From: an uncultured Rhodospira sp.
Lineage (GTDB): Bacteria > Pseudomonadota > Alphaproteobacteria > Rhodospirillales > Rhodospirillaceae
Length of the DNA: 35,519 bases
Assembly: GCF_937138205.1 (NCBI RefSeq)
Contig: NZ_CAKZOT010000054.1
Coordinates: 1-35,519 of the forward strand
Direction of reading: 5' to 3'
Below are positions 24,890 to 30,409 of this stretch, in pieces. The notes beneath the pieces were generated by a model. It did no database searches and was not told the DNA's origin. It was given only the letters and a program-made list of their open reading frames with translations. The position numbers and the translations under genes were made by a program. The stretch's first letter is position 1. Every line of letters begins with the position of its first letter.

Positions 24890-26875
24890 TCACGCGAATT
24901 CCAGGATCACCTGATCCACCGACAGGCTGTCGCCCGGCTGGGCGTGCACTTTGGCGACTGTGCCGTCGACCTCGGAGCGCAGGATGTTCTCCATCTTCAT
25001 GGCCTCGACGACGGCCAGGGCTTCGCCGCTCTTGACCTCCTGGCCCGGCTCGACGGCCACCGACACCAGCAACCCGGGCATCGGCGACAGCAGGAACTTC
25101 GACAGGTCCGGCGGCTGCTTCTTCGGCATCAGGGCGGCATAGCGCGCGGCCTCGGCGGTCATCACCACCGCGCGGTCGCTGGCCCCGGCGTGGAACAGCC
25201 GGTAGCTCACGCCCTCGCGGTCGATCTGCACCGATTCCGGATGGCCGTTGATCTCGCACGTGAACAACGACTGGCCAAGCCGCCAGCCGGTGCGGACCAC
25301 CATGGGCTCGTTGTCCACGACGACGCGGAAGCCGTCCTCCAACAGCGTGACCGTGACCGGGTGGTTGGTGTCGCCCAGCCGCACCACCCACTCGTCGCGC
25401 ACCCCTTTCTCGTGGCCCGGCATTTGGCCGCTGATGCGGGCATCGCGCTCGACGTGCTTGCGGTGCACACAGGCGGCGACGGCGACCAGGATGGTCGGGT
25501 CCTCCGGCGGCAGGTCGGAGAGATGGAAGCCGTCCGGGTACTCCTCGGGGATGAAGTTGGTGGTCAGCTCACCCTTGACGAAGCGCTCCTTGCCCATGAC
25601 CGAGGCCAGGAACGGGATGTTGTGCGACACGCCCCGGATGTAGAACGCATCCAGCGCCCGGCGCATGTGGCGGATGGCCAGTTCGCGCGTGCCGCCGTAG
25701 GCGATCAGCTTGGCGATCATCGGATCGTAGAACATGCTGATCTCGCCGCCTTCCATCACGCCGGTATCGACGCGCACCAGGCCGTCCTCTTCCGCCGGCG
25801 GCACGAAACGTGTCAGGCGGCCGATGGACGGCAGGAAGTTGCGGAACGGGTCCTCGGCGTAGATGCGGCTTTCGATCGCCCAGCCCTTGAAGCGGATGTC
25901 GTCCTGGGTCAGCGTCAGGGGCTCGCCCGCCGCGATGCGGATCATCCATTCCACCAGGTCAAGGCCGGTGACCATCTCCGTCACCGGGTGTTCGACCTGA
26001 AGGCGGGTGTTCATCTCCAGGAAATAGAAGTTGCGATCGGCGTCGACGATGAACTCGACCGTGCCGGCGCTCTTGTAGCCCACGGCCTGGGCCAGGGCGA
26101 CCGCCTGGGCGCCCATCTCGGCGCGCACCTCTTCCGTCAGGAAGGGGGACGGCGCCTCCTCGATCACCTTCTGGTGGCGACGCTGGATGGAGCATTCGCG
26201 CTCGCCGATGTGGATCGCGTTGGTACCGTCGGACAGCACCTGGATCTCGATGTGGCGCGGCTGCTGAATGAACTTCTCGATGAACACGCGATCATCGCCG
26301 AAGCTGGAGCGGGCCTCGTTGGCGGCGGAGACGAACCCCTCGCGGGCTGAGGCGGCGTCATGGGCCACGCGCATCCCCTTGCCGCCACCACCGGCCGAGG
26401 CCTTGATCATCACCGGAAAGCCGATCTCCTCGGCGATGCGCACCGCCTCCTTAGGGTCGTCGATGATGCCCATGAAGCCGGGCACGGTGTTGACCCCGGC
26501 CTCCTGTGCCAGCTTCTTGGAGGTGATCTTGTCGCCCATGGCCTCGATGGCGTGGGCGTCGGGGCCGATGAAGGCGATGCCGGCCTTGGTCAGGGCGCGC
26601 TGGAACGCCTTGTTCTCCGACAGAAAGCCGTAGCCGGGGTGAACCGCCTCGGCGCCGGTGTCCTTGCACGCCTGCACGATACGGTCGATCACCAGATAGC
26701 TCTCGGACGACGGCGCCGGCCCGATGTGCACGCGCTCGTCGGCGAGCTGGGTATGCAGGGCATCGGCGTCCGCGTCGGAGTACACGGCCACGGTTCGGAT
26801 TCCCATGCGGCGCGCGGTCTTGATGACGCGGCAGGCGATTTCGCCCCGGTTTGCGATCAGGATTGTCTTGAACAT
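24890..26875 (-). CDS. pccA: propionyl-CoA carboxylase alpha subunit (biotin carboxylase + biotin carrier)
   Basis: A 661-residue protein that carboxylates biotin with ATP and bicarbonate and carries it to PccB, giving methylmalonyl-CoA. The biotin carboxylase domain (residues 1-450) has FKTILIANRGEIACRVIKTA, the glycine-rich ATP loop KASAGGGGKGM, RECSIQRRHQKVIEEAPS and EMNTRLQVEHPVTE. A linker (BT) region follows. The biotinyl domain ends the protein with biotinylated Lys627 in VVEAMKMEN. Length and order fit PccA rather than the shorter AccC. It is on the same strand as pccB but 1.8 kb away, separated by an opposite-strand gene and a repeat array. Confidence 0.94.
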   Translation of the reverse strand: MFKTILIANRGEIACRVIKTARRMGIRTVAVYSDADADALHTQLADERVHIGPAPSSESYLVIDRIVQACKDTGAEAVHPGYGFLSENKAFQRALTKAGIAFIGPDAHAIEAMGDKITSKKLAQEAGVNTVPGFMGIIDDPKEAVRIAEEIGFPVMIKASAGGGGKGMRVAHDAASAREGFVSAANEARSSFGDDRVFIEKFIQQPRHIEIQVLSDGTNAIHIGERECSIQRRHQKVIEEAPSPFLTEEVRAEMGAQAVALAQAVGYKSAGTVEFIVDADRNFYFLEMNTRLQVEHPVTEMVTGLDLVEWMIRIAAGEPLTLTQDDIRFKGWAIESRIYAEDPFRNFLPSIGRLTRFVPPAEEDGLVRVDTGVMEGGEISMFYDPMIAKLIAYGGTRELAIRHMRRALDAFYIRGVSHNIPFLASVMGKERFVKGELTTNFIPEEYPDGFHLSDLPPEDPTILVAVAACVHRKHVERDARISGQMPGHEKGVRDEWVVRLGDTNHPVTVTLLEDGFRVVVDNEPMVVRTGWRLGQSLFTCEINGHPESVQIDREGVSYRLFHAGASDRAVVMTAEAARYAALMPKKQPPDLSKFLLSPMPGLLVSVAVEPGQEVKSGEALAVVEAMKMENILRSEVDGTVAKVHAQPGDSLSVDQVILEFA

Positions 26876-27008
26876 GGCGTGCCCTGGTCCTCGGTCGGTG
26901 AACGGTCGATCAGGCCGCGAGCCGTGGGCGATCCGCCCATGGCGCGCGCGGCCGACTCATGATTTGATGGTGGCGGAAGTACTGGCGCAACCGATCAGGA
27001 GAAAGCCC

Positions 27009-27395
27009 ATGGACCCCATCGACGCCGACCTGAACGACCTCTCGGGCGAGGTGGTGGACGCGGCCTTCCGTGTCCATTCGACGCTGGGGCCGGGGCTGAT
27101 GGAGGGGGTTTATGAAACCTGCCTCGCGTACGAACTCGACAAGCGGCGTGTGCCCTATGTCCGCCAACTTGAGGTTCCCGTCCGGTATGATGGCCTGCGC
27201 CTGGAAACCGGGTTCCGGGTCGATTTGTTTGTCGGGAACCGGTTGATCGTGGAACTCAAGGCGGTCGAATCCATCGCGAAGGTGCACAAAGCCCAGCTTC
27301 TGACGTACATGAAGTTGATGGATCAACGGCTTGGACTGCTCATCAACTTCAACGTCCATCTCATTCGCGACGGCATTGCTCGGCTGGCCTTGTGA
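27009..27395 (+). CDS. GxxExxY protein (PD-(D/E)XK nuclease-like)
   Basis: A 128-residue protein starting MDPIDADLNDLSGEVVDAAF at 27009, with AGGAG seven bases upstream. The signature Gly-x-x-Glu-x-x-Tyr is in GPGLMEGVYETCL. A nuclease-like core follows: FRVDLFVGNRLIVELKAVES, with Asp and Glu-x-Lys in the PD-(D/E)XK arrangement. The family is related to restriction-type nucleases, but its biological role is unknown. It lies on the opposite strand between pccA and pccB and directly adjoins a 189-bp tandem array of palindromic units. Similar repeats are recalled next to, or translated into, members of this family, so the two may form one unit (inference). Confidence 0.88.
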   Translation: MDPIDADLNDLSGEVVDAAFRVHSTLGPGLMEGVYETCLAYELDKRRVPYVRQLEVPVRYDGLRLETGFRVDLFVGNRLIVELKAVESIAKVHKAQLLTYMKLMDQRLGLLINFNVHLIRDGIARLAL

Positions 27396-27411
27396 TGCCG
27401 ACGGCGACCGT

Positions 27412-28641
27412 GAAAATCCCAGATCATTCTTGAGCCCACTCTCACGGCCGCGTCCGACCGCCCCGTCGGGGGGCGGGCCGCTCTGTGTCCTTTGTGTCTC
27501 TGTGGTGGTCTTTTCCGCGAGGGACCGAGAATTCACCACGGAGACACAGAGATCACAGAGCGCGCGGCTTTCCATCGCCGGGACATCATGCCCCGGCAAC
27601 GACCGCACCATGAGATCCCCGGGTCCATCCTCAAGGCAGGATCCGACCGCCACGGCCGGGTGCTGGCCGCTCTGTGTCCTTTGTGTCTCTGTGGTGGTCT
27701 TTTCCGCGAGGGACCGAGAATTCACCACGGAGACACAGAGATCACAGAGCGAGCGGCATCCCATCGCCGGGACATCATGACCCGGCAACGACCGCACCAT
27801 GAGATCCCCTGTTCCATCCTCACGGCCGCGTCCGCTCGCCCCGGCTGGGCGCGGGCCGCTCTGTGTCCTTTGTGTCTCTGTGGTGGTCTTTTTCGCGAGG
27901 GACCGAGGATTCACCACGGAGACACAGAGATCACAGAGCGAGCGGCATCCCATCGCCGGGACATCATGACCCGGCAACGACCGCACCATGAGATCCCCTG
28001 TTCCATCCTCACGGCCGCGTCCGCTCGCCCCGGCTGGGCGCGGGCCGCTCTGTGTCCTTTGTGTCTCTGTGGTGGTCTTTTCCGCGAGGCCCCGAGAATT
28101 CACCACGGAGACACAGAGATCACAGAGCGAGCGGCCTTCCATCGCCGGGACATCATGACCCTGCGACGCCCGCACCCCAAGATCCCAGGTACGACCCTCA
28201 CGGCTGAGTCCGACCGCCCCGTCCGGACGCGGGCCGCTCTGTGTCCTTTGTGTCTCTGTGGTGGACGTTTCCGCGAGAGACCGAGAATTCACCACGGAGA
28301 CACAGAGATCACAGAGCGAGCGGCCTTCCATCGCCGGGACATCATGACCCTGCGACGCCCGCACCCCAAGATCCCAGGTACGACCCTCACGGCCGAGTCC
28401 GACCGCCCCGGCTGGGCGCAGGCCGCTCTGTGTCCTTCGTGTCTCTGTGGTGCAGTCTTCCGCAGAGGCCGTGAGAGGCACCACAGAGACACGGAGATCA
28501 CAGAGCGAGCGGCATCCCATCGCCGGGACATCATGCCCCGGCAACGACCGCACCATGAGATCCCCGGTTCCATCCTCACAGCCGAGTCCGACCGCCACGG
28601 CCGGGCGCGGGCCGCTCTGTGTCCTTTGTGTCTCTGTGGTG
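27412..28641. repeat. 189-bp tandem repeat array with internal palindromes
   Basis: The 27-base arm CTCTGTGTCCTTTGTGTC... starts at 27481, 27670, 27859, 28048, 28237, 28426 and 28615, always exactly 189 bases apart: six full units plus partial ends. In each full unit this arm faces a near-complementary arm (first unit 27534-27560, ending GAGATCACAGAG) across a ~26-base loop around CCGCGAG, making an ~80-bp imperfect palindrome. The remaining ~109 bases include GACATCATG and CCTCACGGCCG. Units 3 and 4 are almost identical. Because 189 is divisible by three, long spurious frames run through both strands. The array fills the gap between the GxxExxY gene and pccB. Confidence 0.97.
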
Positions 28642-28685
28642 AAATGAATCATCGGGCGTCGCGCCATTCAGACTCCTGCCCCCCC

Positions 28686-30218
<1,533 letters not shown>

Positions 30219-30409
30219 GATCGCTGGTCCCTGTCGATGAAGAGGCGGCGTCGGTGGCGGTCGTGGTGGCGTCCGCCGGCTGGGCGGACGGCGCCAGAGC
30301 CGCGCGCCGCCGATGACTGTGCGGTGCAGTAAGAAATATAGATGCGCCGCAGCACCGGCAAGAGCAAGTCTGTTCTCCCGGGCCTTCACCAGGACGGCGG
30401 CTGGGCTGC

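Follow-up and report, generated by a model that had tools for sequence, protein, structure and literature searches.

The closest described counterparts of the locus reported here are bacterial palindromes that are associated with a gene of their own. In REP/REPIN systems, also termed REPtrons, the gene of a RAYT enzyme lies between inverted palindromes, of which many gene-less copies exist (PMC2817692, PMC3116915); according to the accessible text of PMC2817692, enzyme and repeat covary and the presence of the gene tracks repeat abundance, tandem clusters (BIMEs) occur beside some enzyme genes, and rayt genes evolve fast. In TIRYT elements (TIRtrons), according to the accessible part of their description, long terminal inverted repeats (TIRs) flank the gene of an HUH enzyme; some of these TIRs form repeat families, and a shared motif, GGGGWSAS, was reported for them (PMC3733652). 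A third precedent is the intervening sequence (IVS) of Coxiella 23S rRNA, in which a 28-bp stem surrounds an S23p open reading frame (ORF) and which the part available to us calls selfish (PMC4990558), and a fourth is formed by the intergenic tandem heptamers of Xanthomonas and Nostoc, some of them inverted pairs (PMC4692102, likewise consulted in part). Here we describe a locus on a contig of an uncultured Rhodospira sp. (NZ_CAKZOT010000054.1, positions 1 to 35,519 of the forward strand; this whole stretch of 35,519 nucleotides (nt) is referred to as the window), where a gene of the GxxExxY family is followed by a tandem array of long palindromes. We lean towards viewing it as a derived copy of a palindrome-nuclease element, that is, as part of a REPIN/RAYT-like palindrome system with a PD-(D/E)XK enzyme.

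The open-access literature searched yielded no description of such arms around genes of TIGR04256 (GxxExxY) or PF13366 (PDDEXK_3), and earlier notice in subscription papers or in the text of family databases is possible. Mentions of GxxExxY in the open-access text that was accessible are not about repeats, that of PF13366 and the listed short-string matches to the arm letters were off topic by title, and no published function for this widespread family was found in that literature. Furthermore, no word starting with CACAGAG or CTCTGTG occurs in the main text of the TIRYT paper (PMC3733652).

Inverted arms enclose GxxExxY genes in many phyla

Enclosure was assessed for 77 members of a main set of 80 loci, which represent the best of 580 confirmed GxxExxY loci and not a random sample; L175, L176 and L181 were dropped, their flanks being under 120 nt. 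The test is motif-free and scores the inverted similarity between the 200 nt before and the 200 nt after a gene. By this measure, 65 of the 77 genes reach at least the 99th percentile of 732 control placements within the same loci, with 25 lying above the control maximum; that percentile is reached by 54 of 457 combinations in which flanks were crossed between different loci, while among 706 other ORFs at these loci 8 are enclosed (11 of 709 before the removal of three GxxExxY paralogues). The enclosed loci span 18 phylum labels and include one of two archaeal loci, and a separate sample from the phylum of the window gave 31 enclosed genes out of 41 (L058 and L113 being one locus, counted once). 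The initial annotation of the window, made from the sequence alone, had suggested that repeats of this type accompany GxxExxY genes in many phyla, and these counts support the pairing in a more specific form than was claimed.

In the 100 nt next to the gene, upstream and downstream alike, a regular expression for the arm matches ~20 times per 10 kb, versus 0.04-0.73 times beyond 1 kb, and these matches are oriented, with 13 against 3 facing one way upstream and 12 against 4 the opposite way downstream. Enrichment near the gene over background had been set beforehand as a test by the same annotation; run in part, it was passed both by these densities and by the genome counts given below. In 55 loci filtered for purine-rich upstream arms, an in-frame ATG is located 0-20 nt past the upstream arm in 25 cases, and the downstream arm begins a median of 18 nt past the stop codon. 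In relatives, the arm is often translated in frame as an N-terminal extension, NHKDTK and TTEDTEGTE being examples, as had been stated in the annotation for members of this family. An in-frame stop interrupts the gene in 5 of the 80 loci, as would be expected of decaying elements. Of note, the locus L044 (G256 contig 274, 2-739) contains tandem remnants that comprise the end of a GxxExxY gene, a palindrome and a second arm-gene-arm copy.

The association was also approached from the DNA alone, by a search in 396 genomes from the phylum of an arm-rich genome, which is not that of the window, for two arms separated by 400-430 nt, a spacing set according to known elements. This pattern was found at 14 places in 13 genomes, compared to none for the reversed pattern, and 12 of the 14 interiors encode GxxExxY (E <= 1e-30), or 10 of 12 if the two places in G309, an already known GxxExxY carrier, are set aside; the remaining two interiors are an arm array and a sequence without a GxxExxY gene. 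On a tree of 81 proteins, the phylum labels of the hosts require 42 changes, the least possible number being 17 and the shuffled mean 52.9, with 2 of 78 inner branches starred.

Gene-less palindromes are dispersed and track the gene

A generic arm pattern, searched for in 46 gene-bearing genomes drawn from the main 80 loci, was present in 36 of them, with up to 266 arms in one genome, while the reversed control matched four times overall. Twenty palindromes were taken from the arm-richest genome by selecting '+' arms that closely precede '-' arms, and the orientation of these copies is for that reason no independent result. They are single palindromes with arms of at least 26 nt and loops of 3-21 nt; by eye, their flanks look unrelated and the arms are extended outwards by A-rich and T-rich stretches.

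Among 299 genomes of the phylum to which the window belongs, at least two arms are found in 43 of 58 gene-positive but only 18 of 241 gene-negative genomes (Fisher test, 7e-25); the gene-positive genomes were defined at E <= 0.001, with 57 above the curated cut-off and one below it. As one family (f28, 74 of the 299 genomes) is the source of most of this signal, the tests were stratified, and the association holds both inside the family (39/45 versus 14/29, p 5e-4) and outside it (4/13 versus 4/212, p 4e-4). The association of gene and arms is thus strong, though not obligate. Repeats that vary independently of the gene, which the initial annotation had regarded as telling against a coupling, were found in part, in that arms do occur in genomes without a detected gene. 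The genome G161, in which 139 arms but no GxxExxY gene were detected, also carries, at L111 (contig 269, 5490-5926), an arm array with a step of ~206 nt.

Arms and proteins covary. Across 55 of the 77 loci (a locus was dropped if its score was under 14, its arm over 60 nt or its upstream arm pyrimidine-rich), arm similarity correlates with protein similarity (rho 0.254), also with GC content held constant (0.249) and for pairs from different groups (0.245; p 0.001 each), where groups were hand-assigned from record titles and the proteobacterial classes were kept apart.

The presence and absence of such elements is illustrated by an orthologous intergenic site shared by a genus that belongs to the phylum of the window but to another family. 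In G137 this site holds an arm-gene-arm element, while in 19 of the 22 other genomes of the genus, each a different species (L239-L257), it is empty in six (9-28 nt), occupied by a gene-less palindrome in twelve and by other sequence in one. The arm letters at this site differ between species, and the two arms within each palindrome tend to agree, their mean pair score being 16.1, where orthologous arms reach 12.8 and 11.4 (p 2.5e-4). Either the site has been hit repeatedly, or both arms have been renewed together. Polymorphism for presence and absence was observed at two orthologous sites, i.e., this one and that of the window described below.

The Rhodospira gene and its array of palindromes

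The window gene (27009..27395, + strand) encodes a protein of 128 aa, which had been annotated as a GxxExxY, PD-(D/E)XK-like protein. This assignment is confirmed by matches to TIGR04256 (E 1.8e-41, 141.1 bits against a curated cut-off of 35) and PF13366 PDDEXK_3 (E 1.1e-40, 139 bits against 22), and the gene is the only PF13366 match in the source genome. Residues E32, D72, E82, K84, Q96 and Y100, each invariant or at least 90% conserved among 69 aligned sequences, are all present, and we take E32, D72, the E-x-K motif at 82-84 and Q96...Y100 to be the residues expected for a RecB/Cas4-style PD-(D/E)XK nuclease, with a presumed catalytic role. An AlphaFold2 model (pLDDT 95.1) returned, among its top Foldseek matches in the PDB, Cas4 SSO0001, the archaeal Holliday-junction resolvase Hjc and lambda exonuclease; these scores are not strong (E 0.006-0.05), and a RecB/Cas4-like PD-(D/E)XK fold is plausible on the basis of the model. 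Compared to its orthologue in a sister species (G002), the gene displays a dN of 0.066 and a dS of 1.20, the latter near saturation (ratio ~0.055), which, judged from the two sequences, indicates strong purifying selection; the corresponding values for the neighbouring carboxylase are 0.045 and 0.413.

Downstream of the gene, and on this side only, lies the array (27441..28641), for which the program TRF reports a period of 189 bp, 6.4 copies, 90% matches, 0% indels and a score of 1847. The initial annotation had described seven exact 27-base arms spaced 189 bases apart and directly abutting the gene. Count and spacing are as described, the 27-mer (CTCTGTG...) starting at 27481 and at every 189 bases up to 28615, whereas identity applies to six copies, that at 28426 bearing one change. 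The array does adjoin the gene, if not directly, as it begins 45 nt past the stop codon according to TRF and its first arm 83 nt past it. Each unit consists of an arm (29 nt), a loop (26 nt), an inverted arm (29 nt) and a spacer (105 nt). The '-' arms (CTCTGTG...GGTG) occupy 27479..27507 and recur at 27668, 27857, 28046, 28235, 28424 and 28613, the last one (28613..28641) lying near the right insertion boundary as judged from empty sites; the six '+' arms (CACC...CACAGAG) occupy 27534..27562 and recur at 27723, 27912, 28101, 28290 and 28479, five being identical and one showing two changes. Whole units are only 80-94% alike in pairwise comparison, so that the arms are better kept than the rest of the unit.

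Every arm pair can form a hairpin of 84 nt, the first at 27479-27562 with its loop at 27508..27533, in agreement with the ~80 bp proposed before. With DNA parameters the energy of this first hairpin is -27.6 kcal/mol (z -6.6, none of 200 shuffles being as stable), and that of the hairpin at 28424-28507 is -32.9 kcal/mol (z -7.9), values far beyond chance. The 105-nt spacer, first at 27563..27667, and the 3' flank of the gene (27396..27478) are homologous, with a local alignment score of 44 against a maximum of 34 in 300 shuffles, and array and gene therefore appear to be derived from one element. No sigma-70 promoter was found in the region (0.2 expected), and an Rfam scan of the window at gathering thresholds returned no rRNA and no RNA family at the array, the sole hit being a tRNA elsewhere. 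Two long ORFs cross the array, at 26910-28667 (- strand, 585 codons, without an NCBIfam match) and 27492-30332 (+ strand, 946 codons); since 189 equals 3 x 63, the array is open in several frames, and both are probably artefacts. Annotation pipelines should thus be wary of spurious long ORFs across such arrays, as of arms read into N-terminal extensions.

The element separates two carboxylase genes on the - strand, one for a biotin carboxylase/propionyl-CoA carboxylase-type alpha subunit (24890..26875) and one for a carboxyl transferase subunit (28686..30218). Of five congeners compared at this site, four are empty, with 41-64 nt between the homologous stretches, and alignment with them stops at 26887-26906 and resumes at 28687-28692; the left insertion boundary accordingly falls at ~26888-26906, and the 5' part of the inserted segment (26888..27008) retains no arm. 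The filled congener is the sister species G002, which has the orthologous gene and, at the same place, an array that likewise has a period of 189 bp, in 3.3 copies. Units are 96-98% alike within G002 and 69.5% alike between G002 and the window, i.e., more alike within a genome than between species, a pattern of concerted evolution in which units are exchanged unequally or converted.

Four other contigs of the source genome also carry arm matches. Of the three that were inspected, contig 4 repeats the geometry of the array with two units and a step of 186, and contigs 51 and 91 have one or a few palindromes. The tandem period of the initial annotation is not supported as a feature of the pairing at large, and was rejected as a universal one: the array has 6.4 copies here, 3.3 in the sister species and two on contig 4, whereas the 20 palindromes sampled from another genome are single. 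The 189-bp period has so far been seen in this genus only, where it has the look of a local amplification. The window copy is a derived one: its upstream arm is gone and the hairpin unit on the downstream side has multiplied, probably by unequal recombination; with these changes it may no longer move as a unit, though the gene is still selected.

Unrelated proteins in similar palindromes

GxxExxY genes are not the only ones housed in this manner. Among the eight other enclosed ORFs, four encode 23S_rRNA_IVP four-helix-bundle proteins (Pfam E 2e-13 to 2e-39; L165:978-1337, L196:3260-3625, L186:8454-8783 and L140:6076-6471) and one a DUF559 protein. The 709 control ORFs include four S23/IVP genes, all of which are enclosed; two profiles identified the same four, the first being built from three enclosed ORFs and the second from plasmid proteins only. 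Ten plasmid S23/IVP loci (L290-L299), picked from the top of 35 matching records and eight of them cyanobacterial, all score 14-31.5, seven reaching at least 23, against a threshold of 13 that was set on other genomes. Two of these are located between cas6 and cas4, and one between ribonucleotide reductase subunits. The S23/IVP arms, mostly tandem 7-mers of other letters, have a period of 7 (13 of 14 arms measured, L295 being left out), versus 8-9 for the GxxExxY arms. The Coxiella stem around an S23p ORF represents a known precedent of the architecture for this family.

A further tenant is found at L174:3252-4077, where a GIY-YIG-type gene (MUG113/T5orf172) lies between CACAGAG arms at the usual position of GxxExxY; in 46 genomes, 1 of 11 MUG113 loci has such arms, apparently this same gene. 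Of note, the DUF559 gene at L164:19221-19574 is placed inside a near-perfect inverted pair of 26 nt with unrelated letters, 107 and 174 nt from the ends of the gene. The published heptamers of Xanthomonas and Nostoc resemble some of the S23/IVP arms by eye, and a same origin is possible (PMC4692102, consulted in part); the main text of that paper has no mention of S23 or of a four helix protein.

A proposed model and its alternatives

We favour, with modest confidence, a REPIN/RAYT-like palindrome system with a PD-(D/E)XK enzyme, of which the window would hold a derived copy. Its basic element would be a GxxExxY gene between two arms that face each other (arm > gene < arm), each arm of ~25-30 nt comprising three or four tandem ~7-mers at a period of 8-9 nt, and the gene-less arm-loop-arm palindromes would be dispersed derivatives of it, copying having proceeded in that direction. 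The protein would bind its own arm family once a palindrome folds out into a hairpin or cruciform, and would then nick or resolve it. Palindromes would thereby be mobilised and could spread, undergo replacement or have their symmetry restored by repair, as has been proposed for RAYT on REP/REPIN; between genes, arms would persist as tolerated hairpins. In the window, loss of the upstream arm and multiplication of the downstream unit would have led to the present array, with its copies evolving in concert. Regarding the two roles suggested by the initial annotation, repeat spreading is thus the best reading, while genome defence finds no support (see below).

Several observations weigh against this model. 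By the flank measure, 12 of the 77 genes are not enclosed, including L161, the very gene of the arm-richest genome, and the archaeal L127; the window gene itself is without an inverted arm pair (flank score 8.0, at background level). Only 23 of the 80 loci have the strict arm motif at 1 kb or less from the gene, because lineages use other arm letters, and the wider claim consequently rests on the motif-free test. Of the 58 gene-positive genomes, 15 have fewer than two arms of the pattern; conversely, within one family, 14 of the 29 genomes without a detected gene keep at least two (some of these genomes being incomplete), and G161, with its 139 arms, has no GxxExxY match. Arm type (CAC versus CGC) is not significantly clustered on the protein tree, which is poorly resolved (15 changes versus 17.3 when shuffled, 54 of 300 shuffles being as low), in contrast to the Mantel correlation of arm and protein similarity, and this tells against a simple arm code. 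Comparison by eye of filled and empty orthologous sites revealed no clear target-site duplication, and no excision product was seen. With the window protein as query, GxxExxY was detected in 8 of 72,556 plasmid records and 0 of 50,697 phage records, a rarity which indicates that it is hardly a fast-moving element. On these counts, together with two loci in viral collections, phage or plasmid cargo was rejected as its identity; of the eight plasmid loci, six were fetched and three of these are enclosed. Finally, the occurrence of unrelated S23/IVP proteins in the same architecture suggests that the GxxExxY enzyme may be a tenant of the palindrome and not its driver.

This last point leads to the strongest alternative, which we consider less likely yet serious: the palindromes would be primary, either selfish or tolerated like the 23S rRNA IVS, and be spread by host processes or by another enzyme, with small genes (GxxExxY, S23/IVP and in one case GIY-YIG) colonising their loops because insertion within a stem does no harm. 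The nuclease would then home into palindromes and not mobilise them. The uniform enclosure of S23/IVP genes, both in the control ORFs and on plasmids, is better explained in this manner than by a driving enzyme, and the GIY-YIG gene in CACAGAG arms, the many gene-less palindromes, the arm-rich genomes without the gene and the Coxiella IVS (PMC4990558, in its accessible part) are all consistent with it. Against such housing, arm letters and period differ between the GxxExxY and S23/IVP families, the covariation of arm and protein within GxxExxY is not needed by a generic shelter, only 1 of 11 MUG113 loci is housed, and 12 of the 14 places found arm-first hold GxxExxY.

A broader proposal would accommodate both families, and we put it forward tentatively, at less than even chances. 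Palindromic elements with arms of short tandem repeats would occur across phyla and be both maintained and spread through unrelated enclosed proteins (GxxExxY at period 8-9, S23/IVP at period 7), each family having its own arm letters and renewing its arms in concert, and several intergenic tandem repeats that lack an explanation, perhaps including the cyanobacterial heptamers, would be their gene-less remains.

It is improbable, in our opinion, that the palindromes are simply hairpins of use to the host (bidirectional terminators, RNase III sites or mRNA stabilisers), with the nuclease gene as a minor hitch-hiker and the array as a by-product of unequal crossing-over. The A-rich and T-rich stretches seen by eye outside the arms of one genome would fit such a role, as would the conservation of the window arms while whole units drift and an excess of terminator-like sites around the array, where ten were counted and shuffles give 1.0; nine of the ten are in the array on the + strand. 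The stems of these sites, however, pair spacer with arm start and not arm with arm, and a consensus match is no evidence of function; moreover, a host role accounts neither for the enclosure of 65 of 77 genes nor for the co-occurrence of gene and arms, and presence varies freely among congeners.

Movement of ordinary REP palindromes by an HUH tyrosine transposase encoded elsewhere in the genome is very improbable. It would follow the same logic with similar sizes, and RAYT-like genes in other TIRs (TIRYT) have been reported, including in Acidobacteria, in the accessible text of PMC3733652; yet the enclosed protein is of the PD-(D/E)XK and not the HUH type, no recognisable tyrosine transposase lies inside any of ten non-focal arm pairs (ORFs inspected by eye, a RAYT elsewhere in these genomes not being searched for), and a GTAG/CGTC-type tag lies near the arm in 1 of 20 copies. 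Least credible of all is an anti-phage defence or toxin unit with the array as memory or decoy, as the nuclease fold and partial Cas4 profile matches (E 5e-4 at best) are set against two flanking genes for carboxylase subunits and an absence of homologues from phage records, with two viral loci. Identity as a genome defence or CRISPR system was rejected, PADLOC having returned for the window protein, to which the scan of defence families was confined, only weak and partial Cas4 matches (best E 4.9e-4), and the array units having no unique spacers.

If the broader proposal of palindromic elements with unrelated enclosed proteins holds, bacterial repeats would have an additional route of persistence beside DDE/HUH transposition and retro-elements. 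Enclosure by palindromes, seen in most of the loci studied, provides the GxxExxY family with a concrete candidate substrate, and a common dispersed repeat family with a candidate enzyme. It also suggests a second origin of the REP-RAYT design, with an unrelated fold as its catalyst. The housing of S23/IVP genes in turn connects these repeats with the old question of intervening sequences in rRNA and, perhaps, with the unexplained heptamer repeats.

Comparison with described systems

The S23/IVP loci recall the 23S rRNA IVS, with which they share a stem around a small ORF, and show that this protein family also occurs in tandem-repeat arms outside rRNA. The IVS itself differs in its location in an rRNA helix and its four-helix-bundle protein, and no dispersed tandem-arm palindromes are described for it in the accessible part of PMC4990558; the window copy is inserted not in an rRNA helix but between two carboxylase genes. 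The Xanthomonas and Nostoc heptamers are similarly intergenic tandem repeats with some inverted pairs, but are read as G-quadruplex repeats and have letters unlike those of the GxxExxY arms, as far as the consulted part of PMC4692102 allows this to be judged. TIRYT elements share the enzyme gene between long inverted repeats and the formation of repeat families, and differ in their HUH enzyme and reported TIR motif (PMC3733652, accessible text).

The likeness to RAYT and REPIN extends further. A gene flanked by inverted palindromes is seen in 65 of 77 GxxExxY loci, although not at the window copy; dispersed cognate repeats are abundant and track the gene, in an association that is not obligate; and covariation and tandem clusters beside some enzyme genes have parallels in the accessible text of PMC2817692. 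The enzyme, however, is of the PD-(D/E)XK type instead of an HUH/Y1 tyrosine transposase, the arms are tandem 7-mers of period 8-9, unlike REP, the tag GTAG/CGTC falls within 10 nt outside the arm in just one of the 20 copies, all from one genome, and the window gene, compared to its sister copy, appears to be under strong purifying selection, unlike the fast-evolving rayt genes (PMC2817692, in the part consulted). The system is therefore not a RAYT: palindromes with an embedded cognate enzyme were already known, while the type of enzyme, which is unrelated, and the design of the arms are apparently new.

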